Source: Nitrospirota bacterium (GTDB taxonomy: Bacteria > JACPQY01). Taken from it: 60,031 nt of DNA. Positions within the stretch are counted from its first letter, which is position 1, and the number at the start of each line of letters is the position of its first letter. The stretch covers positions 1 to 60,031 of the forward strand of contig JACPQY010000039.1 in NCBI GenBank assembly GCA_016190245.1, in the 5' to 3' direction. Below the pieces are notes generated by a model that was not told the DNA's origin, did not search any database, and saw only the letters and a program-made list of their open reading frames with translations. A program made the position numbers and the translations under genes. Positions 6,377-48,306 of the stretch are shown in pieces.

Positions 6377-6661
6377 TCACCTCCAGTAGGCTGTTTCCTC
6401 ACGCCGATTCGCCTTTCTCGCTGAAATGATCCGGATGACATCGTCGCTTTTCCTGAAACAATGGCAGACGACGAGTACGCCCAACTTGAAGCTCATTCCA
6501 AGCATGATGAACCGGTCCTCATCCTGCGAGTGGTCCGGGTCGAAGAACCGCACGGCGTTTTCATCGAGAAACACGGTCTGCGCCTCCTCGAAGGACACGC
6601 CGTGTTTCCTGATATTCGCCCTGTTCTTTGCCTCATCCCATTCGAAGCTCAGGCCAAGCAT
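6377..6661 (-). CDS. brnT: BrnT-type RelE-fold ribonuclease toxin
   Basis: A 94-residue protein with the diagnostic BrnT pattern: FEWDEAKNRANIRKHGVSFE near the N-terminus, then a strand-rich core and the C-terminal RIISARKANRREE. BrnT toxins cleave RNA and slow growth under stress. The gene order toxin then antitoxin and the coupling to brnA are typical. The start ATG at 6661 sits about seven bases after a -10 box, so the message is probably leaderless. The pair stands between the RND operon and the end of the 18-haem cytochrome gene. Confidence 0.9.
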   Translation of the reverse strand: MLGLSFEWDEAKNRANIRKHGVSFEEAQTVFLDENAVRFFDPDHSQDEDRFIMLGMSFKLGVLVVCHCFRKSDDVIRIISARKANRREETAYWR

Positions 6662-6663
6662 AT

Positions 6664-6696
6664 GTACAGTGTACGCACTCCGACGGGTTGGGTCAA
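6664..6696 (-). promoter_or_regulatory. brnTA promoter with overlapping palindromic operator
   Basis: Read on the minus strand: TTGACC (6696-6691), a 17-bp spacer, then TACACT (6673-6668). The 11-bp palindrome GTACA-G-TGTAC at 6664-6674 overlaps the -10 box and is the likely BrnA binding site. The spacing puts transcription start at or next to the brnT ATG. Confidence 0.65.
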
Positions 6697-6737
6697 TGCC
6701 GGTGTTCACCCCCACCTGGGTCGCAACCATCGAGACG

Positions 6738-8714
6738 CTATTCTTCTTCGGCCTCCTCCGGGAGGAAACCCGCACTGAATTCGCCGGGTTCATGGCACTC
6801 CCGGCAGGACTCCCGGTCAATGGCGACCGGCCCACGGGAGCCGACCTCGTGACAGGTCCCGCACATCTTCTCCTTGGCCGTGCCTTCCTTGAACTCCTCG
6901 AAGTGATCGCCGTGCACGAATGGCTCCGCGGAATACTTCACGGCCACCTCCACCCCCTCCATCTCCTTGTGGCAGGTGAGGCAGGATCGCTCCCGCGTCT
7001 CCTCGTGGTGGCAGGTGTGGCAGCTATCGGCGGGCACTTTGGCCTCCGGCGGGTGGTCACCCGGATGGCAGGCGAGACAGCGCGTCCCCTTCTCGATGTG
7101 GACATCGTGGCGCATCTTCGTCCCGGCCGCATCCACGAATCGCGCCCCTTCGAGACCGCCATGGCAAACCACGGTGCAGTTCTCCTTGTCGAACGCGCGC
7201 GAGAAGGCGACCGGAACAGGAAATCCGACAAGGGAAGCCACCATCTTCAGATCTTCCGCGCCCTTCTTGAGCAGGTCCACCGAATAGAACGGGTTGTGGA
7301 TGGGATGGGCCGTGCGGACGAGCCGCGCGTTGGACTCGGCCCGCTTGAGGAGGCGGTGCACTTTTCGTCCTTTTTCTCCATTCATCTTCAGGGTCTTTTG
7401 CCGGGATTTCTCCACCCCGATCAGGACGGTCGAAACCATGTCCTCCACCACCGGCGTCATGTGCTTGTCGAAGCGCTTGTACTCGTTCTCGTGGCACGAG
7501 GCGCAGGAGAGCGTCCCCGCCACCTTCGTCTGACCTTCCCACACCGCATCCGTTCCGGAGTGGAGAGGAATGACGTGGCATCCCGCGCAACTGATCCCCA
7601 CGATCGCCATCGGATCCGGCCGAACCTTGACCCCCTCTCCGCCCACGCCGAGGAAGAGGTCCCGTGGGGGATTGTGCATGCGCGTGTGGCAGCTCTGACA
7701 CTGTTGGTTCTGGGTCTCCGCGAGGTGCTTGTTGAACTCGTGCTTGATGGGATCGTGGCACGACTCGCACTCGATCTTGTGTACGGACGTGTGCTCGATG
7801 TGCATCTCGTCCGTGTTCCCGGCCTTCTCGATCTTGTCGGGCTCGTTGTGGCAGTTGAAGCAGCGCCTCTTGTCGGTCCGCCCGTCGCCGCTGATGACGT
7901 CCGCGTGGCACCGCGTGCACTCGATGTTCCGCTTCACGAAATCCTTGTGCTCGGCTTTGAAGCCCGCGGCCTCGATGGTTTTCTCCGGGGGACCGTGGCA
8001 CACACCGCACTTCCCGAGCTTGCTATCGGGGGACACTCTCTCCGTCTCGTGGAGGTGGCACAGGAAGCAGGTCCCCTCCGTCACCTGCACGTGGGATCCG
8101 ATCACCATCTGGGAATGGCAGCTCGTGCAGCGGAGCTTCATCCCGCGGCGCATCTGAGTGAGGTGGGGTTGGTGGTCGAAGTGGATCTCGCGACCCTCGA
8201 TCTTCCACGTGACTTTCCCTTCGAGGAGCCGCGTCTCGTGGCAGCCGCCGCGCAGGCATGACGCGTCGCTGATCTCCGCGAACGGCTTGCTCGTATAGGT
8301 CTGGGTGACGTACGAGACGAGCTGCTTCAGGGCCTTCCACTTTCCGCGCAACTCATGGAGAGCGCCGGGCTCGAAGTGGCATTCCACGCAGTACACGTCC
8401 TTGTGGCTGGAATGCTTCCAGCTCTCCACGTACGGCTCCATGAAGTGGCAGGAGTTGCAGAAGGTGGGGGTCACGGAGAACTCGTAGCCCGCGAAGACGG
8501 CGGCGAACAGCACGACGAAGACGATCCCGGCGAGCGTGCCTACGCGCAGGGCGATCCCGGCGGGATCCTGGCGGTCGAAGGTGGTCAGCCATCGCACGAA
8601 CCGCCTCACGAGTTGCCTCCTCCTCCCCTGCCCCAGAAGGAGGTCGAGGAGGTGCCGTTCAAGCCTCGCGCCCAAGGCCCTGGCCTTTTTCGCCGTTTCA
8701 ATCAAGCGGTTCAT
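6738..8714 (-). CDS. NapC/NirT-type membrane-anchored octadecahaem cytochrome c
   Basis: 658 residues with one N-terminal membrane helix (about residues 55-80) followed at once by the NapC/NirT signature (CNSCHFMEP then CVECH). I count 18 haem sites: 16 CX2CH, one CX4CH (Cys153) and one CX3CH (Cys513). NapC/NirT proteins take electrons from quinol and pass them into the periplasm; the usual number of haems is four, so this protein carries a long extra haem wire. ATG 8714 overlaps the stop of the upstream cytochrome b gene (ATGA), showing translational coupling. No haem-free catalytic domain is visible, so it is probably an electron conduit rather than a reductase. Confidence 0.88.
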   Translation of the reverse strand: MNRLIETAKKARALGARLERHLLDLLLGQGRRRQLVRRFVRWLTTFDRQDPAGIALRVGTLAGIVFVVLFAAVFAGYEFSVTPTFCNSCHFMEPYVESWKHSSHKDVYCVECHFEPGALHELRGKWKALKQLVSYVTQTYTSKPFAEISDASCLRGGCHETRLLEGKVTWKIEGREIHFDHQPHLTQMRRGMKLRCTSCHSQMVIGSHVQVTEGTCFLCHLHETERVSPDSKLGKCGVCHGPPEKTIEAAGFKAEHKDFVKRNIECTRCHADVISGDGRTDKRRCFNCHNEPDKIEKAGNTDEMHIEHTSVHKIECESCHDPIKHEFNKHLAETQNQQCQSCHTRMHNPPRDLFLGVGGEGVKVRPDPMAIVGISCAGCHVIPLHSGTDAVWEGQTKVAGTLSCASCHENEYKRFDKHMTPVVEDMVSTVLIGVEKSRQKTLKMNGEKGRKVHRLLKRAESNARLVRTAHPIHNPFYSVDLLKKGAEDLKMVASLVGFPVPVAFSRAFDKENCTVVCHGGLEGARFVDAAGTKMRHDVHIEKGTRCLACHPGDHPPEAKVPADSCHTCHHEETRERSCLTCHKEMEGVEVAVKYSAEPFVHGDHFEEFKEGTAKEKMCGTCHEVGSRGPVAIDRESCRECHEPGEFSAGFLPEEAEEE

Positions 8715-10738
8715 CGGCCCGAGAAGAACAAGACCGCCGTGATCATCCCCACGGCGAGGACGGTCCCCACGGCGAGAGCCGCGAATCCGAAGAGGCGCGC
8801 GACGCGGATCTGTGTCGGGGTCGGGGGAGGACACAACATGGAGTCCAACGTGCCCTTCTCCTGGGCCTCTTCAAACTCCAGATGCCTCTCATGCTTGAAA
8901 CGCTCGACCGGCATTGAGCCGGTGAACATGACCACGTCCATCGGGAAATTCTCCGGACGAAGGTGATTGTGGAAGAAATGGAAGATGAAAATGAAACCCG
9001 TGGCGAGGAAGGCCTCCTCGCTGTGGATGAGGAACGTGATGTTGAGGATGTAGCCCGGCAGGATCCGGGTGAACAGCTCCGGGAACCAAAGCGACAGCCC
9101 GGAGAGCCCGATGACCGGGATTCCCCAGAACACCGCGAAGTAATCGAACTTCTCCCAGTAGGTCCAGCGACCCCACTTGGGCAGGGGCCCAAGGTAGAGC
9201 ATCCAGCGCAGGTTCCGGTAGATCGCGGTCACATCGGCCAGCTTGGGCACGATCGCCCAGAAGCCCAGGGACTCCCCTGTATTCCTGCCCCGGAGCTTCC
9301 TCCAGATCCCTTCCGAGAGGTGGTAGATCGCGTAGCCGAACGTGATCACGCCGAAGACACGGTGAAAGTATCGCGCCGTCTCCACGCCGCCGAGGAAGAG
9401 CCCGATGAACTGCGCCCAGGGGGCGTCGTGGAACTTGAGGGGCAACCCCGTGGCGGCCAGACCGAGGAAGCTGACGACGATCGTGACGTGCGTAGCCCGC
9501 TGCGAGGTGGTGAACCGGCGGATGTGGGGGCCGGGGGCGGCGGGGGAGAATCTCTGAAACTCTCCGCGGAAGTAGCCCACGAGGGACCGCTGGAGCCAGA
9601 GCAGCGTGTGCAAACCGAAGAACCCGAAAACCCCGATCCACAGCGCGTGCATCGCCCAGAAAACGAAACTGATGAGAGGCGAGCGCGAGCGATCCCGGGG
9701 ATTGGGATGTGGATCGTAGGTGGCGAATTTCGCCGACGCCTTCTCATGACACTTCTGGCACGTCTTGAGCCGGTTCTCGGGGGCGACGCTGGAGAGGGGA
9801 TCGTCCGCCGGCAGGTTGTGGTGAGGCGTGTGGCAATCGGAGCATTTCGCCGCCACCCAGTAGCCCAGCGAGAACGCCTGACCGTGGAAGGTATCCTTGT
9901 AGGTCGGGGCCTCGTCCTCGTGACACTCCCCACACTCCTTGGCCACGGAGGCCATGAATGCGCGGCTGGTCGGCTCCTGCACGCCGTGAGCCGTATGGCA
10001 GGTGATGCAGACGGGGCCCTCGTCGTCTTCGTCCAGCCACAGCTTCCCGTGGGAGCTTTCGCGGAACGTCCGGAGAATGCCCTCGTGGCACTTCGCGCAT
10101 GTGATCGGGACCTGCCGGCGATGCACCTTCGATTGGGGGTTCTCCTTGCCGAGGATCGAGTGATTTCCGTGACAGTCGGAACAGACCGCCGAGACCACGA
10201 GGCCGCTGATCTCAACGCCGCGCCCGTGAACGCTGTCCCGGTATTTCCGGACGAACTCGGGCTCCGGGAGCTCGTGGCCCTGGGTGATCTTCTCGTCCGT
10301 GTGGCACTCGGAGCAGGTGTCGGCCAGACGGAAATGGCTGGTCTTCGAGTCCGGGTCCTTGCTTGGGTAGATGTCGTGCTCTCCGTGGCAGCTCGAGCAC
10401 CTGGGCGCGTCCTCATCCCCCTCTCGTGCCGCCTGGGCATGGACACTCCGGTCATAGTCCTTTGCGGGGTCCTTGTGGCACCGGACGCAGTCGACCCGAT
10501 CGAGGGTGACGCCCTCGTCGTCGTGATCGTCTTTTTCATCGGCATCCGTGTGGCACTTCGCGCAGGGCTCTTTCTTGTGAACAGACCTCTTCAGGATGGA
10601 GGTGTCCACGATGGGCTCTTCCTCGGCGTGGCATTCGAGGCAGTCCTTGTCGGCGGATCCGGCGGGTGCTTCGAGACAGATGAGCAAGCCCAGAACAACG
10701 ATCACCATCCCAAGGCCCCTGTAGGAGCGGATTCTCAT
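8711..10738 (-). CDS. CbcL-like 11-haem cytochrome c fused to a b-type membrane cytochrome
   Basis: 675 residues. A signal segment is followed by 11 CXXCH motifs in the first half. The C-terminal half has about six membrane helices with His residues placed as in FdnI/HydC dihaem cytochrome b (for example VETARYFHRVFG and FHFFHNH). The layout matches Geobacter CbcL, an inner-membrane quinol oxidase for extracellular electron transfer, which has about nine c haems. The likely role is moving electrons from quinol through b haems to the periplasmic c-haem domain. ATG 10738 is preferred; a longer form starting near 10780 would place a dispersed repeat in the coding region. It is coupled to the 18-haem gene downstream. 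Confidence 0.85.
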   Translation of the reverse strand: MRIRSYRGLGMVIVVLGLLICLEAPAGSADKDCLECHAEEEPIVDTSILKRSVHKKEPCAKCHTDADEKDDHDDEGVTLDRVDCVRCHKDPAKDYDRSVHAQAAREGDEDAPRCSSCHGEHDIYPSKDPDSKTSHFRLADTCSECHTDEKITQGHELPEPEFVRKYRDSVHGRGVEISGLVVSAVCSDCHGNHSILGKENPQSKVHRRQVPITCAKCHEGILRTFRESSHGKLWLDEDDEGPVCITCHTAHGVQEPTSRAFMASVAKECGECHEDEAPTYKDTFHGQAFSLGYWVAAKCSDCHTPHHNLPADDPLSSVAPENRLKTCQKCHEKASAKFATYDPHPNPRDRSRSPLISFVFWAMHALWIGVFGFFGLHTLLWLQRSLVGYFRGEFQRFSPAAPGPHIRRFTTSQRATHVTIVVSFLGLAATGLPLKFHDAPWAQFIGLFLGGVETARYFHRVFGVITFGYAIYHLSEGIWRKLRGRNTGESLGFWAIVPKLADVTAIYRNLRWMLYLGPLPKWGRWTYWEKFDYFAVFWGIPVIGLSGLSLWFPELFTRILPGYILNITFLIHSEEAFLATGFIFIFHFFHNHLRPENFPMDVVMFTGSMPVERFKHERHLEFEEAQEKGTLDSMLCPPPTPTQIRVARLFGFAALAVGTVLAVGMITAVLFFSGR

Positions 10739-10774
10739 CCGTCCGGCCCCGGATCGATCGGAATCGATCCCTAC
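10721..10774. repeat. Short repeat bounded by GTAGG and CCTAC
   Basis: The block begins gtaggagcggattctcatc and ends gaatcgatccctac, which are imperfect inverted repeats of each other. Related sequence with GATTCTCAYC is found at 38867-38961 and 48091-48289. It overlaps the first codons of the cytochrome b gene. Confidence 0.45.
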
Positions 10775-10808
10775 ATTCATCTCACATCGGAAGCCCGGTA
10801 ACCCGCCC

Positions 10809-12122
10809 TCATCTTCTTCGCCAGCGGCGGATCAGTCCCACCGCGACCAGAGTGCTGACGACGAACAGCCCGCCGACCGTGACGCCGATGAGCAGAAAGA
10901 CAACGGCCGGGCTCTCCGGCTTCTTGAGGATGACGCGCTCGGCAAAACGGATCGTGCCCTCGACGAGCGCCTTCGCCTCACCGAGTTGGACCTGCACGCG
11001 CCCGACGTCAAGCGAATGCGTGGCGCGAAGGACCTTAAGCCGCGCCTCGCGCACTTCTTCCGCTTCTCCGTCGAGGAATCTTGCGGCCTCCGGCTGGTCG
11101 CGGTACGTGTCCACAGCTTTGTCGAACCGGGCCCCCAGCGCCTCGGCCTGATCGGCGGCTGTTTGGAGGTCCTTCGCCATCTGCATCACCTTCTCCTCGT
11201 CCTCGTCGTGGCACGACTGGCAGTTCCCTTCCGCTTCGGCGTTACCGGTGACCCGACCACCTGCAGCCGGCGCGGCAGCGCCTCGTCCCGAGGGGGTTGC
11301 AGGTGGTCGGGTGAACAGGCCGCCCGGCGGGATGCTGTTCCGATGGTTGCCGTGGCAGTCCGTGCACTCCGGTTCGTCGAACTGAAGCAGCGCCTCGCGA
11401 TGGGCGCTCGTGCGCAAATGGCGGTACACCTCCCGATGACACGTGCCGCAGACCTTCGGCACTTGGCTCACCTCCGCCGGCCGTGCCCCGTGGATCCCGT
11501 GGCAGTCGGCACATACGGGCACATCGTCGGCCCGAGGCGAGGGCCGCTTCCCATACAGGATCTCGCCATGAATTCCGTTCTTATATTCGTCCACCTGGTC
11601 GGTGGGGATCTTGTACGGCTTCATGAGCTTGGGATCCGAATGACATTCCCCGCAGGTGTCGGGCAGCTTCAGACGGTAGACCGGCGACTCCGGATTATCT
11701 TTTGGAAGGATCTTGTGGACCCCGTGGCACGAGGTGCAGATCGCCACGTTCTTGTCGCCCTTGGCCAGCAGCTCCCCGTGCTGGCTGGTTTGATACTCGC
11801 GCAGGACGTTCGTGTCCACGCGGAAGAACTTCATCTTTTCGACATCGGAGTGGCATTCGCCGCACATCCGGAGGGTCTCCGGCCTCGAGAACTTCCCGCG
11901 GAACTTCTTGGCGGCGGCGTGGCCGGCCTTCTCCTCGCGCGCGTCGGGATCGCCCCCGTGGCAGGCTGCGCAGGTGACGTCCGTCTCGAAATGGATGCTC
12001 GCCCGATGCTCCAGATTCACCTTGGGGGTCGCGATATCGTGGCAGTTCAGACACTCGTCAGGCCCGCCCGGATCCGGTGAAACGATCAGAGACAACAGTA
12101 CCAGTTCAGTCCACAACGCCAT
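10809..12122 (-). CDS. Nine-haem periplasmic cytochrome c with C-terminal coiled coil and membrane anchor
   Basis: 437 residues: a short signal segment, nine CXXCH motifs, then a helical region (about residues 305-390, rich in Ala/Glu/Arg with heptad character) and a single C-terminal membrane helix ending in RRWRRR. It therefore sits on the periplasmic face of the inner membrane. It is first in a minus-strand operon with the 11-haem/cytochrome b and 18-haem proteins and probably works with them in moving quinol electrons outward. An unusual Gly/Ala/Pro-rich insert between haems 8 and 9 is encoded by an inverted repeat (see 11251-11312). ATG 12122 has a purine-rich AGAGGATAGG upstream. Confidence 0.85.
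   Translation of the reverse strand: MALWTELVLLSLIVSPDPGGPDECLNCHDIATPKVNLEHRASIHFETDVTCAACHGGDPDAREEKAGHAAAKKFRGKFSRPETLRMCGECHSDVEKMKFFRVDTNVLREYQTSQHGELLAKGDKNVAICTSCHGVHKILPKDNPESPVYRLKLPDTCGECHSDPKLMKPYKIPTDQVDEYKNGIHGEILYGKRPSPRADDVPVCADCHGIHGARPAEVSQVPKVCGTCHREVYRHLRTSAHREALLQFDEPECTDCHGNHRNSIPPGGLFTRPPATPSGRGAAAPAAGGRVTGNAEAEGNCQSCHDEDEEKVMQMAKDLQTAADQAEALGARFDKAVDTYRDQPEAARFLDGEAEEVREARLKVLRATHSLDVGRVQVQLGEAKALVEGTIRFAERVILKKPESPAVVFLLIGVTVGGLFVVSTLVAVGLIRRWRRR
11251..11312. repeat. In-frame inverted repeat inside the nine-haem cytochrome gene
   Basis: A perfect 15-bp inverted repeat: acccgaccacctgca at 11251-11265 and its complement at 11298-11312, with a 32-bp loop. It encodes a low-complexity linker between haem sites 8 and 9, without breaking the frame. 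No such element is needed by the protein family. Confidence 0.8.
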
Positions 12123-12444: not shown

Positions 12445-12462
12445 TGCTGCTGACATGCAGCA
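12445..12462. promoter_or_regulatory. TGCTGC-N6-GCAGCA dyad 1
   Basis: A perfect dyad with TGACAT as spacer. The other three copies are at 22158-22175, 22281-22298 and 38994-39011. The size (18 bp, 6-bp arms, 6-bp spacer) fits a dimeric Fis-type helix-turn-helix regulator such as the response regulators encoded in this window. Confidence 0.6.
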
Positions 12463-12619
12463 GACGCATCCATGCAGCGTGCGCAAGGAGGCAGCAGAGA
12501 CGCCAAGGCTTCCACGCTCCCCGATACGGCCATTCGCTCTCGATCATGAGTGCCGGGCCGCCCGCACGCATCCATACATCGTCTTGTCGCAGGTCTCCTC
12601 TTCGGAAAGGAGGGATCGC

Positions 12620-13351
12620 ATGTTGAGCCGAAACAGTTGTTGCGCGGCCATCCTCGGCGCGCTTCTCACGCTGGTGATGACCTCGTGCGGCGGCGGGGGC
12701 AGTTCGACAGGTTCTCCGTCGGGCCTCAAAGCGACCGCGGTGTCGTTCGAGCAGGTGGACCTCACCTGGACGGACGAGGCCGACGGCGAAGATGGCTACT
12801 ACATCGAACGCCGCGACAAGAATGACGCGACCGGATCTTTCCTGGTGGCAGGAAAAGCCGCGGCCAACGCCAAGGCCTATTCCGACAAAGCCGCCACGGA
12901 GGATTCCACGCTCGTGTACCGCGTGTCCGCCTACAGCGGAAAGAGCAAGGGGGATCCGTCCGGCACCGCCGACGTCACGACCTCGGCCCACGTATTCCCC
13001 GACCTGGCGGCGATCACCGCGAACATCGTCTCTCTCCACAATTACAAGGGCCAGGCGGCGACGCCCGATTGTTTCCAATGCCACGGGCACATGATGTACC
13101 GGAAAACGCTCAACCCGGTCATCAAGGAAATCCACGCCCGGATGATCCCCGCCACGCCCGGATACGACAAGACGAAATACGGCTGGGACGGGCTGGACAC
13201 CAAGGTCTGCACGCACTGCCACCAAAACGTCGACCAGATTGAGCACTCGGGCGCCGGCGCGCGCAAACAGGTCTCGACCGCGACGTGCGCGGCATGCCAC
13301 GGCCCCACCCCGGCCGAGGGCACGAAGACGCTCTTCCTGTCCGCTCCCTGA
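12620..13351 (+). CDS. Trihaem cytochrome c lipoprotein with FN3 domain
   Basis: 243 residues. The lipobox LVMTSC at about residue 20 marks a lipoprotein. Residues about 35-120 form a fibronectin type III domain (LKATAVSFEQVDLTW, then ending with SAYS...GTADVTT). Three CXXCH motifs follow (CFQCH, CTHCH, CAACH). The gene stops 11 bp before the molybdopterin subunit and shares its ribosome-binding style (AAAGGAGGG before ATG 12620), so it is the likely electron-transfer subunit of that enzyme in place of the usual membrane quinol subunit. Outer-membrane or inner-membrane placement cannot be told from the sequence. Confidence 0.8.
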   Translation: MLSRNSCCAAILGALLTLVMTSCGGGGSSTGSPSGLKATAVSFEQVDLTWTDEADGEDGYYIERRDKNDATGSFLVAGKAAANAKAYSDKAATEDSTLVYRVSAYSGKSKGDPSGTADVTTSAHVFPDLAAITANIVSLHNYKGQAATPDCFQCHGHMMYRKTLNPVIKEIHARMIPATPGYDKTKYGWDGLDTKVCTHCHQNVDQIEHSGAGARKQVSTATCAACHGPTPAEGTKTLFLSAP

Positions 13352-13362
13352 GGAGGTGTGCG

Positions 13363-16300
13363 ATGGCGAACGACTCCAAGAACAACTGGCTGAACGGCGT
13401 CACCCGCCGATCGTTCCTGAAGGTCTCCGGCGCGCTGTCGGCGGCCGTCATGGCCAGGCCGATCTTCGCGCTGGCGCAAGATGCGGCGACGCCCGTCTAC
13501 GGGGAAGTCCCCCCCGACGCGCTCACCGGCACGATCCGCTACCGCTTCTCCGTCTGTCAGAACTGCCACGCGCGGTGCGGTCTGATGTGCAAGGTGGTGG
13601 ACGGCGTGCTCGTCAAGATCGATGGCAATCCCTTCCATCCGAACAACCGCGAGGAGGACGAACGGTTCGCCTACGCGACGGACGTCTCCGCGTGGAGCGG
13701 CACCGACTACGAGAAGAACCGCGGCCGGTTGTGTCCGAAAGGTCAGGCCGGCGTGCAGGTCGTGTACGATCCCTACCGGATCAAGCACCCCCTGAAACGG
13801 GCGGGTGGGCGCGGCGAGAACAAGTGGACGGTCATCTCGTGGGACCAAGCGCTCACGGAGATCGCCGACAAGCTCAAGTCGCTCGTTGACGTGACCAACC
13901 GCGTCTCGACCCCCATCTACTCGAGCGATACGGCGCTGAAGGTCGGGCCGATAGCGAACGGACTCGCCTTCTCTCCCGGTCGCTCGACCGACGGCGATTT
14001 CACCTCGCGCATTTTCAAGAGCTCGTGGGGCACGGCCAACGACCGTCTCGATCACACGTCCATCTGCGAAGCCTCGCGCCACGTGGGGACCGATCTCATC
14101 ACCGGCGCGCGGAAGAAAGCCAAGTCCGCCAAGGGCAACAACTTCTTCCGGGCCGACATCATGGGTGCGGAGTACTTCATCATGTGGGGCGCGAACTTCC
14201 TCGAAGCCAACTTCCCCATGCTGGCCCTCTCCCGGAAAGTCGTGGAGATGAAGAAGAAGGGCGGGAAGCTCGTCGTGGTGGACCCGCGCTTCTCGAATTC
14301 CGCGGCCAAGGCGGACCGGTGGCTCCCTGTGAAGCCCGGAACGGACGCGGCCCTCGCGCTGGGCATGGCGCGATGGATCATCGACAACGCGAAGTACGAC
14401 GCCAACTTCCTCAAGGCGCCAAGCTCCGCGGCGGCGGCCGCGGTGAATGAGAAGTCCTGGTCGGACGCCACCTACCTCGTGAACACGAGCACGAAGGCCC
14501 TCCTCACCTCCAAGGACGCCGGGCTGGCCACCACCACGCTCAGCGCGGACGTCACAAGCTCGGCCACGACCATCGCTGCGGCCGACACCTCGGCCTTCCC
14601 GAGCAAGGGCTTCATCAAGATCGGCTCGGAGGTGATCTACTACAAGAGCACCGACGCGACGAACTTCAAGGAGTGCACGCGCGGGATCGTCGGCGCGGCG
14701 GCGGCCGGCACGAGCGGAGCCGAAGTGGTGGCACCGTTCGTCGTCTACCGGAACAGCGCGGCCTCGATCGACGTGAGCTCTGCGGCCGACCTCGAAGTGG
14801 ATACGACCGTCAACGGTGTGGCCGCCAAATCGGTCTTTACGCTGATGAAGGCCCGGGTCCAGGAGAAATCCATTGACGAGTACGCCGCGATCTGCGGGAT
14901 TGATTCCAGCACGATCTCCGCCGTGGCTCAGGAGTTCACCTCCCACGGCAAGAAGGCGGTGGTGGACACCTACCGAGGCGTCGTGAAACACACGAACGGC
15001 ATCTACGCCCACTTCGCCTGCATGCTCCTGAATACGCTCATCGGCAACTACGATTGGAAGGGCGGCAGCTCGAAGGGCGGTGGAGGCTGGAAGATCAACG
15101 GCGTCTCCGGCCAGGTTGACATCAGCAAGGTCCCCAGCGGCGTGAGCGCCAAAGGTCCGCGCATCGACCGTTCGGGAAACGACTACGAGGACGTGAAGTC
15201 TGTCCTCCAGGCCGCCGGGAAGGACAGCGGCGGCTACCCTGCCAAGCGGCCGTGGTTCCCCTTCGGCTTCTACGGCAACTACCAGGAAATCATTCCCGGC
15301 ATGGCCGACGGATACCCCTACCCGTTGAAAGCCCTCTTCCTGTACTGGAACGCGATTCCCTATTCAGTGCCCGGCGCGAAAGCGCTCTATGAAGCCACGA
15401 TGAGGGACGAGAGCAAGATCCCGCTCGTCGTCGGCATCACCACGGTCATAGGCGAGGCGTACGAGTACGCGGACTATCTCCTGCCGGAGTGCGGCTACCT
15501 CGAACGGTGGTCGTTCCCGGGCGTGCCGGCGGCGCTGACCAAGTCAACATCACTCCGCCAGCCGGTGATCGGGAGCTTCGACGACCGATCATGGGACGCG
15601 GAGTTCGATCCGAATCAACCGAACGCCTACAAACCTGCAGCCGTCCCGGATGCCCGCCAGTTGGAAGACATCCTCATCGCCTTGGCGACCAAGCTGGGCC
15701 TGCCGGGCGTCGGCTCCAACGCGATGGTCAAGTCGGACGGAACGGCCGTGCGAAACCTCGACCGGACCTGGGACTTCATCAAGTCCGAGCTCGAGAACCT
15801 CTCGGCGGATTCCGGGAAGTCCATCAAGGAGATCGTCTCCAAGGGCGGCGTCTTTGCCGACCCCGGGGCCGACTACGATGGCAGCTACCTGCACGGGCAG
15901 TACGCAGGCCTCGTCAGGATCTACATCGAGGATCTGGCGACCATCAAGGACTCGATGAACGGAAACGGATGGGATCCGCTGCCCAGGTACGTTCCCATCA
16001 GTCGCGCGGACGACGTGGCGGTGGACGACAGCGCGGGCTATCCTTACCAGCTCATCACGTTCAAGAGCGTCCTCCACGGCCAGGCGCGGACGATCCAGTG
16101 CCCGTGGCTCGTCCAGATCGGCCTCCACGGAAGCCAGTTCCTCTTCAACTTCGTGGAGATGAACGCCTCGGACGCGGCCAAGCTGGGTGTCGTCACCGGC
16201 GACACGGTGAAGGTCACCTCGGCCTCCAGCACGGCCGGCGTAACCGGAAAGGTCTGGGTGACGCAGGGGATGCGGCCCGGCGTGGTGGGGATCTCTCACC

Positions 16301-16536
16301 ACTACGGACACTGGGCGGAAGGCTCCAAGCCCCGCACGGAAGACGGCGCCGAGTGGAAGACCGAGGATGGGAAACCGGGCTACGACCCCAGCAGGGGTTT
16401 GGGCATAGCCCCGAACACGATCATGCGGCTGGACGAGTCGCACGGGAACCGGGGAGCCTCGAACTCCTCGCTCCAGGACAAGATCGGCACCTCGGTGGCG
16501 TTCAACGACACCTGGGTGAAGGTCGAAATCGCGTAG
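13363..16536 (+). CDS. Tat-exported molybdopterin oxidoreductase, catalytic subunit (Psr/Arr/Ttr-like)
   Basis: 1057 residues of the DMSO-reductase family. A Tat signal (TRRSFLKVSG) begins near residue 15. The N-terminal cluster motif is CX2CX3C with a distant fourth Cys in LCPKGQ, as in 4Fe-4S-bearing members. The likely molybdenum ligand is the Cys of HTSICEASRHVG, which places it with Cys-type enzymes (polysulfide, thiosulfate, arsenate, tetrathionate reductases). The C-terminal molydopterin-binding fold includes the stretch SVLHGQARTIQCPW. The substrate cannot be named. Residues about 385-455 are an unusual inserted module. ATG 13363 has GAGGAGG upstream. The neighbours are a 4Fe-4S subunit, a chaperone and an upstream trihaem lipoprotein. 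Confidence 0.88.
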   Translation: MANDSKNNWLNGVTRRSFLKVSGALSAAVMARPIFALAQDAATPVYGEVPPDALTGTIRYRFSVCQNCHARCGLMCKVVDGVLVKIDGNPFHPNNREEDERFAYATDVSAWSGTDYEKNRGRLCPKGQAGVQVVYDPYRIKHPLKRAGGRGENKWTVISWDQALTEIADKLKSLVDVTNRVSTPIYSSDTALKVGPIANGLAFSPGRSTDGDFTSRIFKSSWGTANDRLDHTSICEASRHVGTDLITGARKKAKSAKGNNFFRADIMGAEYFIMWGANFLEANFPMLALSRKVVEMKKKGGKLVVVDPRFSNSAAKADRWLPVKPGTDAALALGMARWIIDNAKYDANFLKAPSSAAAAAVNEKSWSDATYLVNTSTKALLTSKDAGLATTTLSADVTSSATTIAAADTSAFPSKGFIKIGSEVIYYKSTDATNFKECTRGIVGAAAAGTSGAEVVAPFVVYRNSAASIDVSSAADLEVDTTVNGVAAKSVFTLMKARVQEKSIDEYAAICGIDSSTISAVAQEFTSHGKKAVVDTYRGVVKHTNGIYAHFACMLLNTLIGNYDWKGGSSKGGGGWKINGVSGQVDISKVPSGVSAKGPRIDRSGNDYEDVKSVLQAAGKDSGGYPAKRPWFPFGFYGNYQEIIPGMADGYPYPLKALFLYWNAIPYSVPGAKALYEATMRDESKIPLVVGITTVIGEAYEYADYLLPECGYLERWSFPGVPAALTKSTSLRQPVIGSFDDRSWDAEFDPNQPNAYKPAAVPDARQLEDILIALATKLGLPGVGSNAMVKSDGTAVRNLDRTWDFIKSELENLSADSGKSIKEIVSKGGVFADPGADYDGSYLHGQYAGLVRIYIEDLATIKDSMNGNGWDPLPRYVPISRADDVAVDDSAGYPYQLITFKSVLHGQARTIQCPWLVQIGLHGSQFLFNFVEMNASDAAKLGVVTGDTVKVTSASSTAGVTGKVWVTQGMRPGVVGISHHYGHWAEGSKPRTEDGAEWKTEDGKPGYDPSRGLGIAPNTIMRLDESHGNRGASNSSLQDKIGTSVAFNDTWVKVEIA

Positions 16537-16546
16537 GAGGTGAGCG

Positions 16547-17140
16547 ATGGGACAATTCGGCTGGAAACTCGATCTGGGCAAGTGCGTCGGCTGCCACTCC
16601 TGCGCGATTTCGTGCAAGGCGGAAAACAACACCTACCCGCAGACGAGCCCGCTGGAGATGACGCCCGCGGGGAAGGTCAAGTCGGTGAACTACCGCTTCG
16701 TGTACTATTTCGAAGAGGGCACGTTCCCGGCCGTGAAGATGACCTTTCTTACGACGGCGTGCAACCACTGCAAAGAGCCGGCGTGCTTGAAATCCTGCCC
16801 GGTCGGCGCGATCAGCAAGCGGCCGGCGGACGATCCGACGGCGCCGGGCGTGGTGCTCATCGACCAGAACAAGTGCATCGGATGCAAGTACTGCATCTGG
16901 GCCTGCCCGTACGGCGCGCCGCAATTCAACTCGCGGACGAACAAGGTGGAGAAGTGCACGGGGTGCATCCACCGGCTCGAGCAGGGGCTCCTGCCGGCCT
17001 GCGTAACGACCTGCGCCGGGCGGGCGCTGACCCACACGCTGGACTTCCAGGATGGCGACTCGGGGAAGAACAAACCCTCGAACTTCTCGGACGAGAAGTT
17101 CACCAAACCGTCCATCCAGTTCGGGAACTATGAGTTCTGA
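16547..17140 (+). CDS. Four-cluster 4Fe-4S electron-transfer subunit (DmsB/PsrB-like)
   Basis: 197 residues with four cysteine groups: CVGCHSCAISC near the N-terminus, CNHCKEPACLKSC, CIGCKYCIWACP, and CTGC...CVTTC. This is the full set for four 4Fe-4S clusters in DmsB/PsrB/ArrB-type subunits. It has no signal peptide and would be exported with the Tat-bearing catalytic subunit. It starts ten bases after that gene (GGAGG before ATG 16547). The operon has no NrfD or DmsC-type membrane subunit, so electrons probably go to or from a cytochrome such as the trihaem lipoprotein. Confidence 0.92.
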   Translation: MGQFGWKLDLGKCVGCHSCAISCKAENNTYPQTSPLEMTPAGKVKSVNYRFVYYFEEGTFPAVKMTFLTTACNHCKEPACLKSCPVGAISKRPADDPTAPGVVLIDQNKCIGCKYCIWACPYGAPQFNSRTNKVEKCTGCIHRLEQGLLPACVTTCAGRALTHTLDFQDGDSGKNKPSNFSDEKFTKPSIQFGNYEF

Positions 17141-17858
17141 GGCCGGGGGCTCGATCGAGGGGTCAGGCCGACCCGACTTGACCCCGAGCGCCGACGCCCG
17201 CGCCCGCGAAAACCTCTACCGCTTCCTCGCCGCGTCGTTCATCGAACCCCCGTCGCTGGGGTCCTTGCAGAGGTTGGCCGGCGAGGTGGAGGACCTGTGC
17301 GCGCTCTCTCCTCAGGCAGGCGAGCACTTCTCGAGGGAATTGGCCGCCCTCGAACGCGATGCGGCCGGCTGTGTCGGGCGGCTCCGGCAGGAATTCTACG
17401 ACCTCTTTCATGTGCCGACCGGCAAGTACACGAGGCCCTACGAGGCGGTGTACCGGGACTCCCGTGTGGTGGACGCCACACGGGACGGGCGGCCCGGACC
17501 GTTCGAAGTGGGCGGCCTCACCTGGGGCCCCTCCACGGTTGCCGTCGAGCAATTCTACCGCCATGCCGGACTGAACCTCGAGCTCCGCGAGGTGCCGGAC
17601 TATGTCGGTGTAGAGATGGAGTTCATGGCCTTTCTTCTGGGAGAAGAGCGCAAGGCGCTCGAAGCAGGAGAAGCGGAAAAAGCAGGCAACGTCCGCCACT
17701 GGCAGAAAGCCTTCCTCGAGCGCCACTTGGCGCAGTGGGTTCCACTTCTTTGCCGTCAGATCCTGGAAAACTCCGGGAGCGACTACTTCAAAGGATTGGC
17801 TCACCTTACGATGGGCTTCGTGGCCTCCGAATCGGATATCCTGAGCCCCTGCGCCTGA
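17130..17858 (+). CDS. TorD/DmsD-family molybdoenzyme maturation chaperone
   Basis: 242 residues, all-helical, cytoplasmic. It has the family pattern ARENLYRFLAASF at the N-terminus and a central acidic segment PDYVGVEMEFMAFLLGEE that matches the TorD E-x-D-H/EFM region. Such chaperones hold the Tat signal of the catalytic subunit until the cofactor and clusters are inserted. ATG 17130 overlaps the end of the 4Fe-4S gene by 11 bp, so it belongs to the same operon. Its presence supports that the enzyme is folded before export. Confidence 0.85.
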   Translation: MSSEAGGSIEGSGRPDLTPSADARARENLYRFLAASFIEPPSLGSLQRLAGEVEDLCALSPQAGEHFSRELAALERDAAGCVGRLRQEFYDLFHVPTGKYTRPYEAVYRDSRVVDATRDGRPGPFEVGGLTWGPSTVAVEQFYRHAGLNLELREVPDYVGVEMEFMAFLLGEERKALEAGEAEKAGNVRHWQKAFLERHLAQWVPLLCRQILENSGSDYFKGLAHLTMGFVASESDILSPCA

Positions 17859-17879: not shown

Positions 17880-18045
17880 AAAAGTAGTACCGGCCGCCGA
17901 GGCCGCCCTGCAACTCGAAGCTCGTATCCGGCAGCAGCGAGATGCCCACGCTTCAGGGCGCCGCCGTCACGGCAACGCCTGTCGACCGTGTGCCAGCGTC
18001 GGCCTGCGTGTTGTCCAGGCAGAACTTCTTTTCCTTCATCGCCGG
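17880..18045 (-). pseudogene. Possible relic of an outer-membrane barrel gene
   Basis: Read on the minus strand from 18040, a start MKEKKFCLDN is followed by one stop codon and then VGISLLPDTSFELQGGLGGR-YYF, a strand pattern typical of outer-membrane barrels. The in-frame stop and short length argue for a decayed fragment between the TorD-like gene and sensor module A. The assignment is tentative; chance similarity is possible. Confidence 0.25.
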
Positions 18046-18096
18046 GGCTTTGCGCTGACTTTGTGGGCCGAAGCAACCCCTCCAAGGCCAGAAAGA

Positions 18097-18110
18097 TTGA
18101 CCCCCGTCAT
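18097..18110 (+). promoter_or_regulatory. CRP/FNR-like site 2 (TTGACCCCCGTCAT)
   Basis: TTGAC-N4-GTCAT, the same core as site 1, placed 36 bp before the preferred start of the module A sensor gene. It may control the whole module A operon. Confidence 0.45.
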
Positions 18111-18146
18111 GCCCCGGCTACTCGAACGCCCGCACCATGCCCCGGG

Positions 18147-19094
18147 TTGACAAGAACCGCTTGGATGCTCGCCTCGGGTACTGTGCTGGTGGCGGCAGTT
18201 CTCTCACTGGCCGTGTGGCGGACACTCGAAAAGCGGGAGGAGCCGTTCGAGGTGCGCCTCGACTCGGAGAACCTCGTGCGGCCGGGGCAAGGCGCGGAAC
18301 CGCTCCGGCTGGCCATCGCGCCCGTCCTCTCGCCGGACCTCACCGTGGAGGCCTACCAATCCCTCTCCGACTACCTCTCCGCGCGAATGCCGCGCCCGGT
18401 CCGGCTCGTTCAGCGCAAGACCTACGGAGAGGTGAACGAACTCCTGCGCCACGCCACCATCCAGGCCGCCATCATCTGCACGGGCGCCTACGTTCGCGCC
18501 CTCATGGACAACATCAAGCTCGATGTCATCGCCGTCCCCAGCTACAAGGACGGTCCGGTCTACTATTCCCTGATCGTCGTAAGGTCGGCCGATCCCGCCC
18601 GGAGCCTCAACGACCTGAAGGGCCGCAGCTTCGCGTTCACCGACCCCCTCTCCCTCAGCGGGCACTACTATGCGATCTCGGCGCTTCTGGACATGGGCGC
18701 CAATCCAGCCGCCTACTTCTCGAAAACCACATTCACATACAGCCATGACGGAAGCATGAGGGCCGTGCTGGACGGCATCGCCGACGGCGCCGCCGTGGAC
18801 AGCCTGGTGTACGAGGATATCATCCGTCGCAACCCCGGAATGGGCGAGGCGTTGCGGGTTGTCCACCGCTCCCCTCCGCTGGGCGCGCAGCCCGTGGTCG
18901 TTCCCGCCTCCCTCGACCCGACGCTCCGGGAGGGGTTCCAGAAGGCTTTCCTGGGGATATCCGACTCGGTCCGCGGCCATGTGACGGTGGAGTCGCTCGG
19001 TATCGAGCGGTTCGTCGTCCCCCCCCCCGGTCTCTACGACTCCGCCTCCCAACTCGTCGCCAAGGTGAACCGGTATCTGCAAGAGCGGAGGTAG
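18147..19094 (+). CDS. PhnD-family periplasmic binding protein, module A (AioX-like)
   Basis: 315 residues with an N-terminal hydrophobic segment (signal or anchor) and one PhnD-type substrate-binding domain: APVLSPDLTVEAYQSLSDYL, SLIVVRSADPARSLNDLKG, FAFTDPLSLSGHYY and TYSHDGSMRAV. Such proteins bind phosphonate-like or oxyanion ligands. Here the gene stands before a histidine kinase instead of a transporter, as in AioX-AioS-AioR. Cys111 (in IICTGAYVR) aligns with Cys111 of both paralogues. The TTG at 18147 is chosen because it gives the same length as the paralogues; ATG 18165 is the alternative. No ABC permease genes are nearby, which favours a sensory role. Confidence 0.82.
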   Translation: MTRTAWMLASGTVLVAAVLSLAVWRTLEKREEPFEVRLDSENLVRPGQGAEPLRLAIAPVLSPDLTVEAYQSLSDYLSARMPRPVRLVQRKTYGEVNELLRHATIQAAIICTGAYVRALMDNIKLDVIAVPSYKDGPVYYSLIVVRSADPARSLNDLKGRSFAFTDPLSLSGHYYAISALLDMGANPAAYFSKTTFTYSHDGSMRAVLDGIADGAAVDSLVYEDIIRRNPGMGEALRVVHRSPPLGAQPVVVPASLDPTLREGFQKAFLGISDSVRGHVTVESLGIERFVVPPPGLYDSASQLVAKVNRYLQERR

Positions 19095-19154
19095 GGAAGA
19101 AGGTAAACACCACCGTTGTTTCTGGGCCTGTCCTGTCGTATCTAGCAGCCTAGA

Positions 19155-20570
19155 ATGGCGTTCCTTCCGCGCCCCCCCCTCAAACTGCGGACGCGCATCA
19201 CGGCCAGCTTCGTCCTCGTCCTCTCCGTCTGGGGCCTCATCCTTGCGGCCTCCCTGGGCTACATCCTCCTCGACTCGTCCCACCGCTTCTACCGCGAGCG
19301 CGGGGTCCACCTCATCCGCGCCCTGGCCGCGCAATGCGGCCCCCTCGTGTACTACGAGGACTGGACGGGATTGGACAGCCTGTTTCAGAGCCAGATGAAA
19401 TCCATTCCGGACCTGCGATATATTGCCGTGGTGGATCCCGCCGGCGTTCCGATCTGGAGCACTTTCGCGGCGGGATTCCCCGCGGATCTCCTGGCCGTGC
19501 CGCATGACCCTCCCTCCGCCACGGCCGTCTCCTGGCGACTGGTCCAACTCAGTGGCGAACGAGTCGTTGACTATCAGGTGGAGAAGGGTCGCTTTGTCCT
19601 TCGAATGGGAATGAGCCTGGCTCCGGTGGAGCACTTGAGTCGGCGTGTCGCCCTCTACGGGGCATGCATCGGCCTCGGAGGTCTCCTGGCCGTGCTCATC
19701 ATTGCGCTCTACATAAGCCGGCCCCTTGAGGCCCTCAGTTCCACCATCGAGCGAGCGGTGCTCCTCGATCGGAAGACCGGCGGCCCGGAGGCTTTTCAAG
19801 GCACGCTCGAGACCTCGAAAATAGGGAAGCACTTTCAGGATCTCATGGATCGCCTCGAGGAGCGGACCCGCCAGCTCGATGCCGCCAAGAAGTTGGCCTA
19901 CCTCGGCGAGGTCTCCGCCACCATCGCGCACGAGATCAACAACCCGCTGGGCGTGCTGGCCATCAACTCGGAGTTCCTCGGCGAGCGGGCCCAGGCGGGA
20001 CATCTCGATCCGGAGGCGGTCGAGGAGGTCGAACGGCTCCAGATCGCCTCGAAGCGCGCCACCCTTGCCGTGCAGAAGTTCCTCCAGTTCGCCCGGTACA
20101 CCACAAAGGGTGGCGAGATGCGGCTGCGGCCGACCGCCCTGCAAACCGTCGTCCGCGAGTGCGCCCAGTTGCTCGAAGACCGCCTCCGCCTGGGCCGTCT
20201 CACGCTGAGGACGGAGATCTCTCCGAACCTCCCCCGCGTGATGTGCGACGAACAAGGCCTCCAGCAGGTCCTGTTCAATCTCCTCACCAACGCGGTGGAC
20301 GCGAGCCCCGAGGGCGGGGAGATCACGGTGCAGGTCGCTCTCGATGGCCCCGAGCTCACCCTCCAGGTGTCCGATCGGGGACAAGGCATGACGCCGGAGG
20401 CCCTCCGCCACGCTCCCGAGCCCTTCTTCACCACCAAGGAGCAGGGTCTCGGGCTCGGACTCGCCATCTCGAACACGATCGTCCTCGCCCACGGTGGGGC
20501 CCTCACGCTCGAGAATCGCCCGGGCGGAGGCGTCCTCGCGAGCGTCCGGATCCCGGTGCAAACCCTGTGA
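19155..20570 (+). CDS. Membrane histidine kinase, module A (AioS-like)
   Basis: 471 residues: membrane helix 1 (about 14-38), a periplasmic domain of about 120 residues (FYRERGVHLIRALAAQ, then KSIPDLRYIAVVDPAG, Cache-like), membrane helix 2 (about 168-190), a HAMP region, a HisKA domain with His259 in ATIAHEINNP, and a HATPase domain (NLLTNAVDAS, DRGQGM, GLGLGLAIS). The kinase would read the ligand state of the periplasmic binding protein and phosphorylate the regulator that follows. It starts 60 bp after the sensor gene and overlaps the regulator gene by four bases. Confidence 0.93.
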   Translation: MAFLPRPPLKLRTRITASFVLVLSVWGLILAASLGYILLDSSHRFYRERGVHLIRALAAQCGPLVYYEDWTGLDSLFQSQMKSIPDLRYIAVVDPAGVPIWSTFAAGFPADLLAVPHDPPSATAVSWRLVQLSGERVVDYQVEKGRFVLRMGMSLAPVEHLSRRVALYGACIGLGGLLAVLIIALYISRPLEALSSTIERAVLLDRKTGGPEAFQGTLETSKIGKHFQDLMDRLEERTRQLDAAKKLAYLGEVSATIAHEINNPLGVLAINSEFLGERAQAGHLDPEAVEEVERLQIASKRATLAVQKFLQFARYTTKGGEMRLRPTALQTVVRECAQLLEDRLRLGRLTLRTEISPNLPRVMCDEQGLQQVLFNLLTNAVDASPEGGEITVQVALDGPELTLQVSDRGQGMTPEALRHAPEPFFTTKEQGLGLGLAISNTIVLAHGGALTLENRPGGGVLASVRIPVQTL

Positions 20571-21916
20571 CCACCCCGCTCGCGAAGATCCTCCTCGTGG
20601 AGGACGACAAGGCCATGCGTGAGAGCTGCCGCCAGATCCTCCGGAAGGTTCCCTACGAGGTCATGGACGCGGCGCTGCCCAAAGAGGCCGAGGCGATCCT
20701 CCTGCGCGAAGAGTTCGATCTCGTCGTCACTGACCTCCGGATGCCCCAAGGCGGCGGCCAGGAGGTCCTTCGAGCGGCGCGCAAAGTGTCGCCCGACCTC
20801 CCCGTCATTCTGATCACGGCCTACCCTTCCGTCCAATCCGCCGTCGAGGCCTTCAAGGGAGGCGTGACCGACTACCTGACAAAGCCCTTCACGGTGGAGC
20901 AACTCCGGCAGGCGGTCCAAGCCGCCTTGCGAACGAGCCAGGCCAAGGATCGAGCCGACCTCCTGCGCCGGATGGGACCGTCCGATCCTGCCGCGCAGGA
21001 CCTCATCGGCCAGTCGCCGCGAACGCTCGCTTTCCTGTCCGAACTCAGGCGTGTGGCAAGACTCGAGGCCCACGTGCTCATCTCGGGTGAACCCGGATCC
21101 GGGAAAGATCTCGCCGCGAGAACCCTCCACCGCTTCTCGAACCGCGCCTCAGGCCGCTTCGTGGCTGCGAGCTGCGCCGCGCTGGAGGAATCGCCCCTTG
21201 CCGGAAGCGGGGACGTCCTGCACAAGGCCCTGGAACAGGCTCGAGGCGGGATTCTCTACCTGGATGAACTGAGTGATCTCGCTCCCGGCGCCCAAGCCCG
21301 ACTTCTCGGAATCCCGGACAGCCGGAGGGAAACGACCTCGCCGGCGTCAGACGTCCCTCGTCCATCGTCCGACATCAGAATCGTTGCCTCAACCCGCAAG
21401 GACCTCCTCCAAGACGTCCAAGCAGGCCGCTTCAGGGAGGACCACTACTACCGCCTCACGAGTCTCGAGATCCGGGTCCCGCCGCTTCGCGAGCGACCGC
21501 AGGACATCCCCGGGCTCGCCGTGCACTTCCTCGATCGCTTCGCCGCCGAACTGGACGCGAGGAAGATCGTGGGCCTCGGCGAGGATGCGCTCGGGCTCCT
21601 CGTGGAGCACTCGTGGCCCGGAAACGTGCGGGAGCTTGCGAATGTCCTTCGCAACGCGGTTGCGCGCGCTACGGGCCCCCTCATTACGAAAGAAGATCTT
21701 CTGGAGACCGGGGCGCTCGCTCGCGAAGCCGGCGCGGCGGACGAGCCCGCCTCGCCGAGACGCTCCGCGCTCGACGACTACGAGCGCAAGTACCTCGCCG
21801 GCATGCTCGCGAGCCACTCTGGAAATGTCACGCAGACCGCGCAGGCGCTCGGCATCCATCGAACCACACTGCAGCGCCTGATGAAAAAGTTCGGCATCGC
21901 CGGCTCCGGGCGATAG
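20567..21916 (+). CDS. NtrC-like response regulator, module A (GAFTGA loop absent)
   Basis: 449 residues. Receiver domain with phospho-acceptor Asp56 in VVTDLRMP; AAA+ region with Walker A GEPGSGKD and Walker B ILYLDE; C-terminal Fis-type helix-turn-helix (NVTQTAQALGIHRTTLQRL). The sigma54-contacting GAFTGA loop is missing: the sequence runs from the second strand directly to the Walker B region, so it may act without sigma54. GTG 20567 overlaps the kinase stop (GTGA). The next gene is the eight-haem lipoprotein, whose upstream region holds two TGCTGC-N6-GCAGCA dyads, the presumed binding sites. Confidence 0.9.
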   Translation: MTTPLAKILLVEDDKAMRESCRQILRKVPYEVMDAALPKEAEAILLREEFDLVVTDLRMPQGGGQEVLRAARKVSPDLPVILITAYPSVQSAVEAFKGGVTDYLTKPFTVEQLRQAVQAALRTSQAKDRADLLRRMGPSDPAAQDLIGQSPRTLAFLSELRRVARLEAHVLISGEPGSGKDLAARTLHRFSNRASGRFVAASCAALEESPLAGSGDVLHKALEQARGGILYLDELSDLAPGAQARLLGIPDSRRETTSPASDVPRPSSDIRIVASTRKDLLQDVQAGRFREDHYYRLTSLEIRVPPLRERPQDIPGLAVHFLDRFAAELDARKIVGLGEDALGLLVEHSWPGNVRELANVLRNAVARATGPLITKEDLLETGALAREAGAADEPASPRRSALDDYERKYLAGMLASHSGNVTQTAQALGIHRTTLQRLMKKFGIAGSGR

Positions 21917-28986: not shown

Positions 28987-29039
28987 CACGGGACGCTGTC
29001 CGGCTGCGGACGCGCATCACCGCCTCCTTCGTCGCGTAC

Positions 29040-31392: not shown

Positions 31393-31547
31393 AACGGGGC
31401 CTTTTCCCTCTGTGGGACATTCCACGCGAATGGGACGGCGCTCACCGCACACTCCAGCCTGCGCACACCTCGCCCCTCCGGGCTGCAGGCGCTCCGAAGG
31501 AACGGCCAACGGCGGTGGCCCCGCGGACAACACTAAGGAGGTTCGCA

Positions 31548-44160: not shown

Positions 44161-44190
44161 CGCCCACGTGCACCGGGTAAAACAAGCGGA

Positions 44191-44237
44191 TATAATCGCC
44201 CGATAAACTGGACCGCCGCGGTTCACAATAGGAACCG
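44191..44237 (+). promoter_or_regulatory. Candidate nirK promoter and inverted repeat
   Basis: A perfect TATAAT at 44191-44196 has no good -35 box, which suggests an activated promoter. Downstream, CGGTTC (44219-44224) and GAACCG (44232-44237) form an inverted repeat with a 7-bp spacer within the leader. The regulator is unknown. Confidence 0.45.
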
Positions 44238-44276
44238 TCTCGGCCACTCGTCCGCATCCCCAAGGAGCCCGACACG

Positions 44277-47183: not shown

Positions 47184-47199
47184 CGGGGTGCCGCTCCCC

Positions 47200-47988: not shown

Positions 47989-48306
47989 CAATGCCTCCTC
48001 CTCTCGTCAACCCGCGCCGGCCAGCCGCAGACCGTAGACAAGGCCCGATTACCCTATCAGAGAAGCGCACCCGATGGGTGGGCCATTCCGGTAGGGAACG
48101 ATTCTCACCTGCCCGCCGATTGGCAGGCGGGTCGCTCCGTCTTTTCGGACGCACAGGAATGCCACGTAACATGCCCCGCATCCCCTTGCCGAGGAGGGCA
48201 AGGTGCCATGCTGATGGCAGCCCCTCTCCCCCGCGGCGGACTGCTTTCTGCTCATGGCACCAGGGCTCCTTGCCCAGGTGCGCCCCTACGCGACAGAACC
48301 AATTGT
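47989..48306. other. Gap with repeat elements
   Basis: About 318 bp with no gene. It contains a block from GTAGGG (48091) to CCCCTAC (48289) with internal hairpins (CCTGCC/GGCAGG near 48108-48128, CCTTGCC/GGCAAGG near 48184-48204) that belongs to the GATTCTCAYC repeat family. Confidence 0.5.

Follow-up and report, generated by a model that had tools for sequence, protein, structure and literature searches.

Proteins of the CbcL/MtrH/MtoC type are described as joining an N-terminal multihaem c domain with 3-23 haems to a C-terminal six-helix cytochrome b, and as occurring in 15 phyla (PMC6295460). In NrfH, haem 1 and the quinone pool have been connected with Met49 and Lys82 (PMC10654088, PMC4683180). 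The last five haems of OcwA are reported to superimpose on NrfA, its haem 5 being open, with H380 and H381 above it, and the enzyme to reduce nitrite and hydroxylamine without a CXXCK motif (PMC6703420). NapC-type and CbcL-type genes in one cluster have already been published: Zhong and Shi (2018) describe an R. ferrireducens cluster with two cymA genes, mtrH and mtrABC (PMC6295460), and the ImcH and CbcL homologue of D. acetexigens carry consecutive accession numbers, suggesting that their genes are neighbours (PMC12133095). Here we analysed three adjacent multihaem cytochrome genes, termed A, B and C, of a Nitrospirota bacterium (assembly GCA_016190245.1, contig JACPQY010000039.1). The window is the entire 60,031-base contig, which comes from a 3.29 Mb draft genome that is 84.8% complete. 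We found that the trio is probably an inner-membrane electron-transfer module linking the quinone pool to the periplasm, and that it recurs across many bacterial phyla.

The sequence-only reading had placed a nine-haem anchored cytochrome, an 11-haem/cytochrome b fusion and an 18-haem protein on the minus strand, and open reading frames (ORFs) and motif counts confirmed this arrangement (Table 1). Its total of 38 haems was also upheld, as 36 canonical and two atypical motifs, both of the latter in C and both supported by conservation. A and B are separated by 28 bp, and the ATGA through which B and C were said to be coupled was read directly in the sequence. By spacing and strand, the three genes would form one operon; a scan for promoters and terminators yielded nothing informative. 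For B, a signal-peptide-like start at Met15, near 10738, is more likely. When the window was compared with the sister genome G001, the sole other member of the source family compared (the remaining genomes share only the domain), A, B and C were found there in identical order with 9, 11 and 16+2 haem sites, the proteins being 76%, 54% and 83% identical, respectively. Apart from these genes, just five stop-to-stop frames in the window contain at least two CXXCH motifs. Chance is excluded, because such frames are few and G001 repeats the genes, their order and the motif counts.

Judged by its features, a multihaem half, six helices and conserved histidines aligned with FdnI, B belongs to the CbcL/MtrH/MtoC type and is unexceptional within that known family. 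The model of B (predicted local distance difference test score, pLDDT, 88.9) contains C-terminal helices at residues 368-405, 425-449, 466-496, 541-565, 577-607 and 655-686, and matched the fold of FdnI (1kqf_C), the cytochrome b of formate dehydrogenase-N (Z 15.6, 203 residues, 2.7 A). A 45-row profile of B (alignment A5, 45 of 50 fused ORFs, window counted) matched the same protein with E 2.1e-16. H431, H473, H586 and H601, kept in 45/45 rows, align with FdnI H18, H57, H155 and H169, which we take to be haem b ligands. Residues 43-267 resemble hydroxylamine oxidoreductase (HAO)-type haem domains (fold Z about 8), and Pfam returned cytochrome c7/c3 motifs as well as Ni_hydr_CYTB, the latter slightly above its cut-off.

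The relatives of C were collected by scanning 84,980 species genomes with a C alignment, which gave at least 463 of them; the best 80 loci were kept, a choice biased to closer relatives. Ninety-five C-like ORFs scored above 440 bits, and the C alignment (A4) has 86 rows, nine being omitted (five weaker second copies, L079, L114, L115 and L137). With 18 haem sites, C goes beyond the four or five of NapC/NrfH quinol dehydrogenases, and from alignments and a structure model (pLDDT 81.5) it looks like an NrfH-like four-haem quinol head, an OcwA/NrfA-like tail and a six-haem extension in one chain. The head passed the cut-off of PF03264, the NapC/NirT N-terminal domain (39.2 bits, cut-off 24.1), and matched the fold of Desulfovibrio NrfH (2j7a_O; Z 7.9, 127 residues, 28% identity), to which the C profile aligned with E 1.1e-15. 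Haem 1 lies in a CXXCHXM motif whose M92 corresponds to M49 of this NrfH and is kept in 86/86 rows; K125 corresponds to its K82 and is kept in 82/86. The CbcL-type and NapC-type quinol proteins claimed for the locus are thus both present, as B and as the head of C. The description of C as an enlarged NapC-type protein holds for the head, whereas the C-terminal half is OcwA/NrfA-like. By fold, residues 328-498 resembled MccA (Z 11.8), OcwA (Z 10.5) and NrfA (about 8), and the 86-row profile matched OcwA 6i5b with E 3e-27, placing haems 8-12 of C on OcwA haems 5-9, its last five. These NrfH and OcwA assignments come from VIA-align and profiles; Foldseek returned nothing for C at E 0.001 or better against the PDB and nothing against viral proteins (best E 0.35). 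C was rejected as an ImcH, as it has one predicted helix and CX2CH at haem 1 in 86/86 rows.

All 12 core haem sites of C were kept in 86/86 rows, each ending in CH, with CX3CH at site 6 in one row. Site 3 reads CX4CH in 75 rows and CX2CH in 11; the motif switches between these forms and is never lost, which favours a true haem site. The extension, which resembles the sixteen-haem cytochrome 1z1n, is more variable: site 13 reads CX3CH in 27 rows, CX2CH in 36, a gap in 22 and another form in one, site 14 is present in 63/86 rows and sites 16-18 in 54/86.

Besides M92, the core of C has ten invariant non-motif histidines and an invariant M369. When haem 1 is set aside, 11 core haems face nine invariant histidines and M369, plus H347. 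This residue, itself invariant, aligns with OcwA chain residue 351, which we equate with H380 of PMC6703420, and haem 8 of C corresponds to haem 5 of OcwA and haem 1 of NrfA. If H347 had an OcwA-like role, haem 8 would be open and the tally would still balance for the other ten haems; if H347 were a ligand, all core haems after haem 1 would be closed. C could itself be a terminal reductase, a natural fusion of NrfH with an OcwA/NrfA-like enzyme in which haem 8 is five-coordinate under H347. The profile match, the position of H347, where OcwA has a histidine over haem 5, the ligand tally and the activity of OcwA on nitrite and hydroxylamine would all fit such an enzyme. A motif scan found no CXXCK in C, which rules it out as an NrfA, and the invariant H305 and H308, not in OcwA, could make every core haem six-coordinate; in addition, C often adjoins another quinone module, superfluous if the enzyme were self-sufficient. 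On balance we consider a terminal reductase unlikely. Its fullest form, in which C is an undescribed, phylum-crossing, single-chain quinol dehydrogenase-reductase that oxidizes quinol at the NrfH head, reduces a small substrate at an open haem 8 and feeds a periplasmic wire through the six-haem output branch, seems to us decidedly doubtful.

Gene A is predicted to be a periplasmic nonahaem cytochrome tethered at its C-terminus, as it has a signal sequence, a long helical C-terminal region and a single predicted membrane helix near its end. In alignment A6 (46 of 48 ORFs, window counted) all nine motifs, seven further histidines and M97 were kept in 46/46 rows, and H241 in 45/46. A scored 133 bits on the profile of B's c domain, indicating that the two are homologous and ruling out that A and B are unrelated.

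We found that the trio is not peculiar to this genome. Neighbourhood counts used 89 C genes at 495 bits or more (six second copies dropped), and A and B types lay within 5 kb on the same strand of 22 of them, window and G001 included. Among the 47 C genes flanked on each side by at least 5 kb, 18 had both A and B, six A only, 16 B only and, by subtraction, seven neither. In a separate sample, C relatives occurred in 30/290 genomes (E 1e-60). Together the scan, these counts and this sample rule out a unique 38-haem trio. Trio loci, assigned by their titles or tree groups, were present in at least nine phylum-level groups besides that of the window: Acidobacteriota, Gemmatimonadota, Methylomirabilota, Bipolaricaulota, Planctomycetota, Caldifarciminota, Omnitrophota, Kryptoniota and Myxococcota. 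A tree of 86 C proteins spanned 18 named phylum-level groups. In it the window's C clustered with that of G001; one planctomycete and one acidobacterial sequence joined them more loosely. Gene order varied; the A-B-C order of the window was seen in G001 and in Methylomirabilota loci L067, L099 and L131; in the latter three, small cytochrome genes separate A from B. The view that both kinds of quinol protein in one operon would be unusual did not survive these counts and the published pairing. As to whether the trio is a common, already described complex, it does recur and NapC plus CbcL clusters are published, but the open-licence literature searched showed no C-like NrfH-OcwA fusion.

The same counts bear on the two options of the sequence-only reading, that the proteins may work at different redox potentials or as one complex. 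B and C might act independently, as a pair of quinol oxidases suited to different acceptor potentials like Geobacter ImcH and CbcL, co-regulated but not in one complex. B is CbcL-like and C has its own quinol head, CbcL is reported to be required at low potential (PMC9129911), and A or B alone often accompanies C among the fully flanked genes. The ATGA coupling of B and C speaks against independence, as does the repeated adjacency of A or B to C on the same strand: among the 89 C genes, 31 had A within 300 bp upstream and 33 had B within 300 bp. A cytochrome b lay within 2.5 kb on the same strand of 44 of the 89. Separate oxidases thus appear rather unlikely.

Other gene sets were also seen near C. 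A conserved set of an 8-haem cytochrome, an iron-sulfur (FeS) protein and an NrfD-type protein lies near C in L070, L074, L090, L061, L047, L113 and others; an NrfD-type gene was found in 17/87 C loci, two of these hits being weak (43 and 75 bits), and the L070 set was checked by Pfam. In planctomycete loci L078, L087, L101, L106, L108, L112, L115, L121 and L125, and likewise in L119, titled Vicinamibacteraceae, two cytochromes come after B and C, each with ~13 CXXCH and two atypical motifs. L044 (6075-7949) and L045 (8380-9855), from distant genomes, encode ImcH-like NapC-type proteins with three to four helices and CX3CH adjoining B-type genes, so that the B type is there paired with another NapC type.

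The reading of the trio as a quinol module draws support from the NrfH head of C, with its PF03264 match, fold and M92/K125, from the FdnI fold, histidines and six helices of B, and from recurrence of the trio. In such a module, the membrane di-haem cytochrome b of B would carry electrons between a quinone site and the periplasmic domain with its 11 haems, as in CbcL/MtrH/MtoC. C would oxidize quinol beside haem 1 at the periplasmic face, as NrfH and CymA do, and pass the electrons through its 12-haem core and then the six-haem extension, while the tethered A could serve as an exchange hub toward soluble partners. Several observations weigh against this reading. For NrfH Asp89 no clear equivalent was seen in C, the alignments stopping short of that position, and every NCBIfam match of A, B and C fell under its cut-off, including the NrfH model on C (43.8 bits, cut-off 134.2). 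A lies within 5 kb on the same strand of only 44/89 C genes, although some loci end early. The genome also has a bc-type cytochrome b, two NrfD-type proteins and a haem-copper oxidase gene, so the trio would not be the sole route.

Next to the trio, a divergent operon encodes a molybdopterin (Mo) reductase with a visible twin-arginine translocation (Tat) motif, together with an FeS subunit and a TorD-type chaperone. The best models for the Mo enzyme were TtrA (374.5 bits, cut-off 1750) and PhsA, and its closest solved relatives are thiosulfate reductase and ArrA. No NrfD-type membrane subunit was found in the divergent operon, and none was seen in its G001 counterpart, where the Mo enzyme, FeS and chaperone genes likewise diverge from the trio. 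Because this arrangement is found in both genomes, the likeliest client of the trio here would be the divergent Tat-exported Mo reductase of the Ttr/Phs/Arr kind. In Shewanella, CymA serves ArrAB, and by analogy electrons from the trio would reach a reductase that lacks its own NrfD subunit. The Mo enzymes of the window and G001 are only 25-27% identical over their aligned parts, as against 83% for C and 54% for B, which marks the trio as the constant part. On our reading, the quinol module stays the same while the reductases that it serves can change. Beyond both sister genomes, only two loci (L117, L120) had a related Mo enzyme, so any link to this client is at best a local one.

The flow might also be reversed, with electrons from a periplasmic or extracellular donor reducing the quinone pool via B and C. 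Proteins of the CbcL/MtrH/MtoC type are reported from both Fe(II) oxidisers and Fe(III) reducers, direction being not readable from sequence (PMC6295460), and the haem-copper oxidase gene would suit this direction. Since the best models of the adjoining Mo enzyme are reductases, although the name of a model does not prove direction, we regard a reverse module as quite improbable and favour quinol oxidation.

Table 1. Coordinates in the window of the trio, its domains and atypical haem sites, and the divergent operon.
Feature	Position	Strand	Content or basis
Gene A	10809-12122	minus	437 amino acids (aa), 9 CXXCH
Gene B	8711-10780	minus	689 aa, 11 CXXCH
B c-type domain, residues 47-345	9746-10642	minus	11 CXXCH
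B membrane cytochrome b domain, residues 368-686	8723-9679	minus	FdnI alignment, 45/45 rows
Gene C, from ATG	6738-8714	minus	658 aa, 16 CXXCH + CX3CH + CX4CH
C NrfH-like head, residues 58-207, one predicted membrane helix, haems 1-4	8094-8543	minus	fold and alignments
C atypical haem site 3, CLRGGCH (CX4CH), residue 153	8238-8258	minus	86-row alignment
C OcwA/NrfA/MccA-like part, three-helix bundle, residues 328-498, haems 10-12	7221-7733	minus	profile and fold
C six-haem extension, haems 13-18, residues 505-641	6792-7202	minus	86-row alignment
C atypical haem site 13, CTVVCH (CX3CH), residue 513	7161-7178	minus	86-row alignment
Divergent operon, proposed client	12455-17858	plus	ORFs, Pfam, protein family models
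3-haem fn3 cytochrome	12455-13351	plus	
Tat-exported molybdopterin reductase	13285-16536	plus	Tat motif visible
FeS subunit	16547-17140	plus	
TorD-type chaperone	17052-17858	plus	
ArrX/AioX-like periplasmic sensor	17988-19094	plus	ArrX 6x6b E 1.5e-52, AioX 6esv E 3.4e-28

The ArrX-like sensor gene adjoins genes for a histidine kinase and a sigma-54 regulator. It belongs to the first of three sensor sets (17988-21916, 28039-31345 and 35129-38839), each near a multihaem cytochrome gene and each comprising a PhnD-like periplasmic protein, a histidine kinase and a response regulator with sigma-54-activator-type domains; the three PhnD-like proteins are 46-51% identical. Placement of the trio in an Mtr conduit was rejected, as no MtrB/PioB was found in the 84.8%-complete genome, a weak test in which the model passed its cut-off in 0/14 controls. 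An OmcA/MtrC-family decahaem cytochrome is encoded at 31515-34112 (179.6 bits, under the 209.3 cut-off), though the genome gave no MtrB/PioB match. C is followed immediately, on its own strand, by a BrnT-type toxin domain (6377-6835, minus; PF04365, E 8.1e-30), and the region 42646-50385 encodes two GMC oxidoreductases, a multicopper oxidase-cytochrome c fusion, an FGE-sulfatase-domain protein and SCO1.

What the literature searched did not describe is the C family, NrfH-headed with a fixed 12-haem core, which occurred in roughly one in ten of the genomes sampled, often in uncultured phyla and next to CbcL-type or NrfD-type quinone modules. If C is a quinol module, it gives respiration in those phyla a marker and a protein open to experiment; should haem 8 be open, C would unite dehydrogenase and reductase in one chain.

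Compared with known systems, the trio resembles the R. ferrireducens mtr cluster in bringing NapC-type and CbcL-type quinone enzymes together, but the NapC type there is the four-haem CymA, and the window's genome gave no MtrB/PioB match in what was a weak test. ImcH shares with C a NapC-like part, many haems, an inner-membrane location and frequent adjacency to other cytochrome genes, but it has three helices and CX3CH beside the membrane, where C has one helix and CX2CH. B has the architecture of CbcL/MtrH/MtoC, an N-terminal multihaem c domain and a C-terminal six-helix HydC/FdnI-like cytochrome b, with 11 haems where CbcL has nine; the likeness is judged from architecture. The tail of C differs from OcwA and NrfA/MccA/HAO in being membrane-anchored, fused to a quinol head, devoid of CXXCK and supplied with extra invariant histidines, but it shares with them the three-helix bundle, five aligned C-terminal haems and an invariant histidine at the OcwA H380 position. 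Finally, C departs from NrfH/NapC/CymA in the 14 haems that follow its four-haem head, in the CX4CH at site 3 and in an Asp89 equivalent that is not clear, whereas the head itself has their single N-terminal helix, the CXXCHXM at haem 1, a lysine at the K82 position and the NrfH fold.

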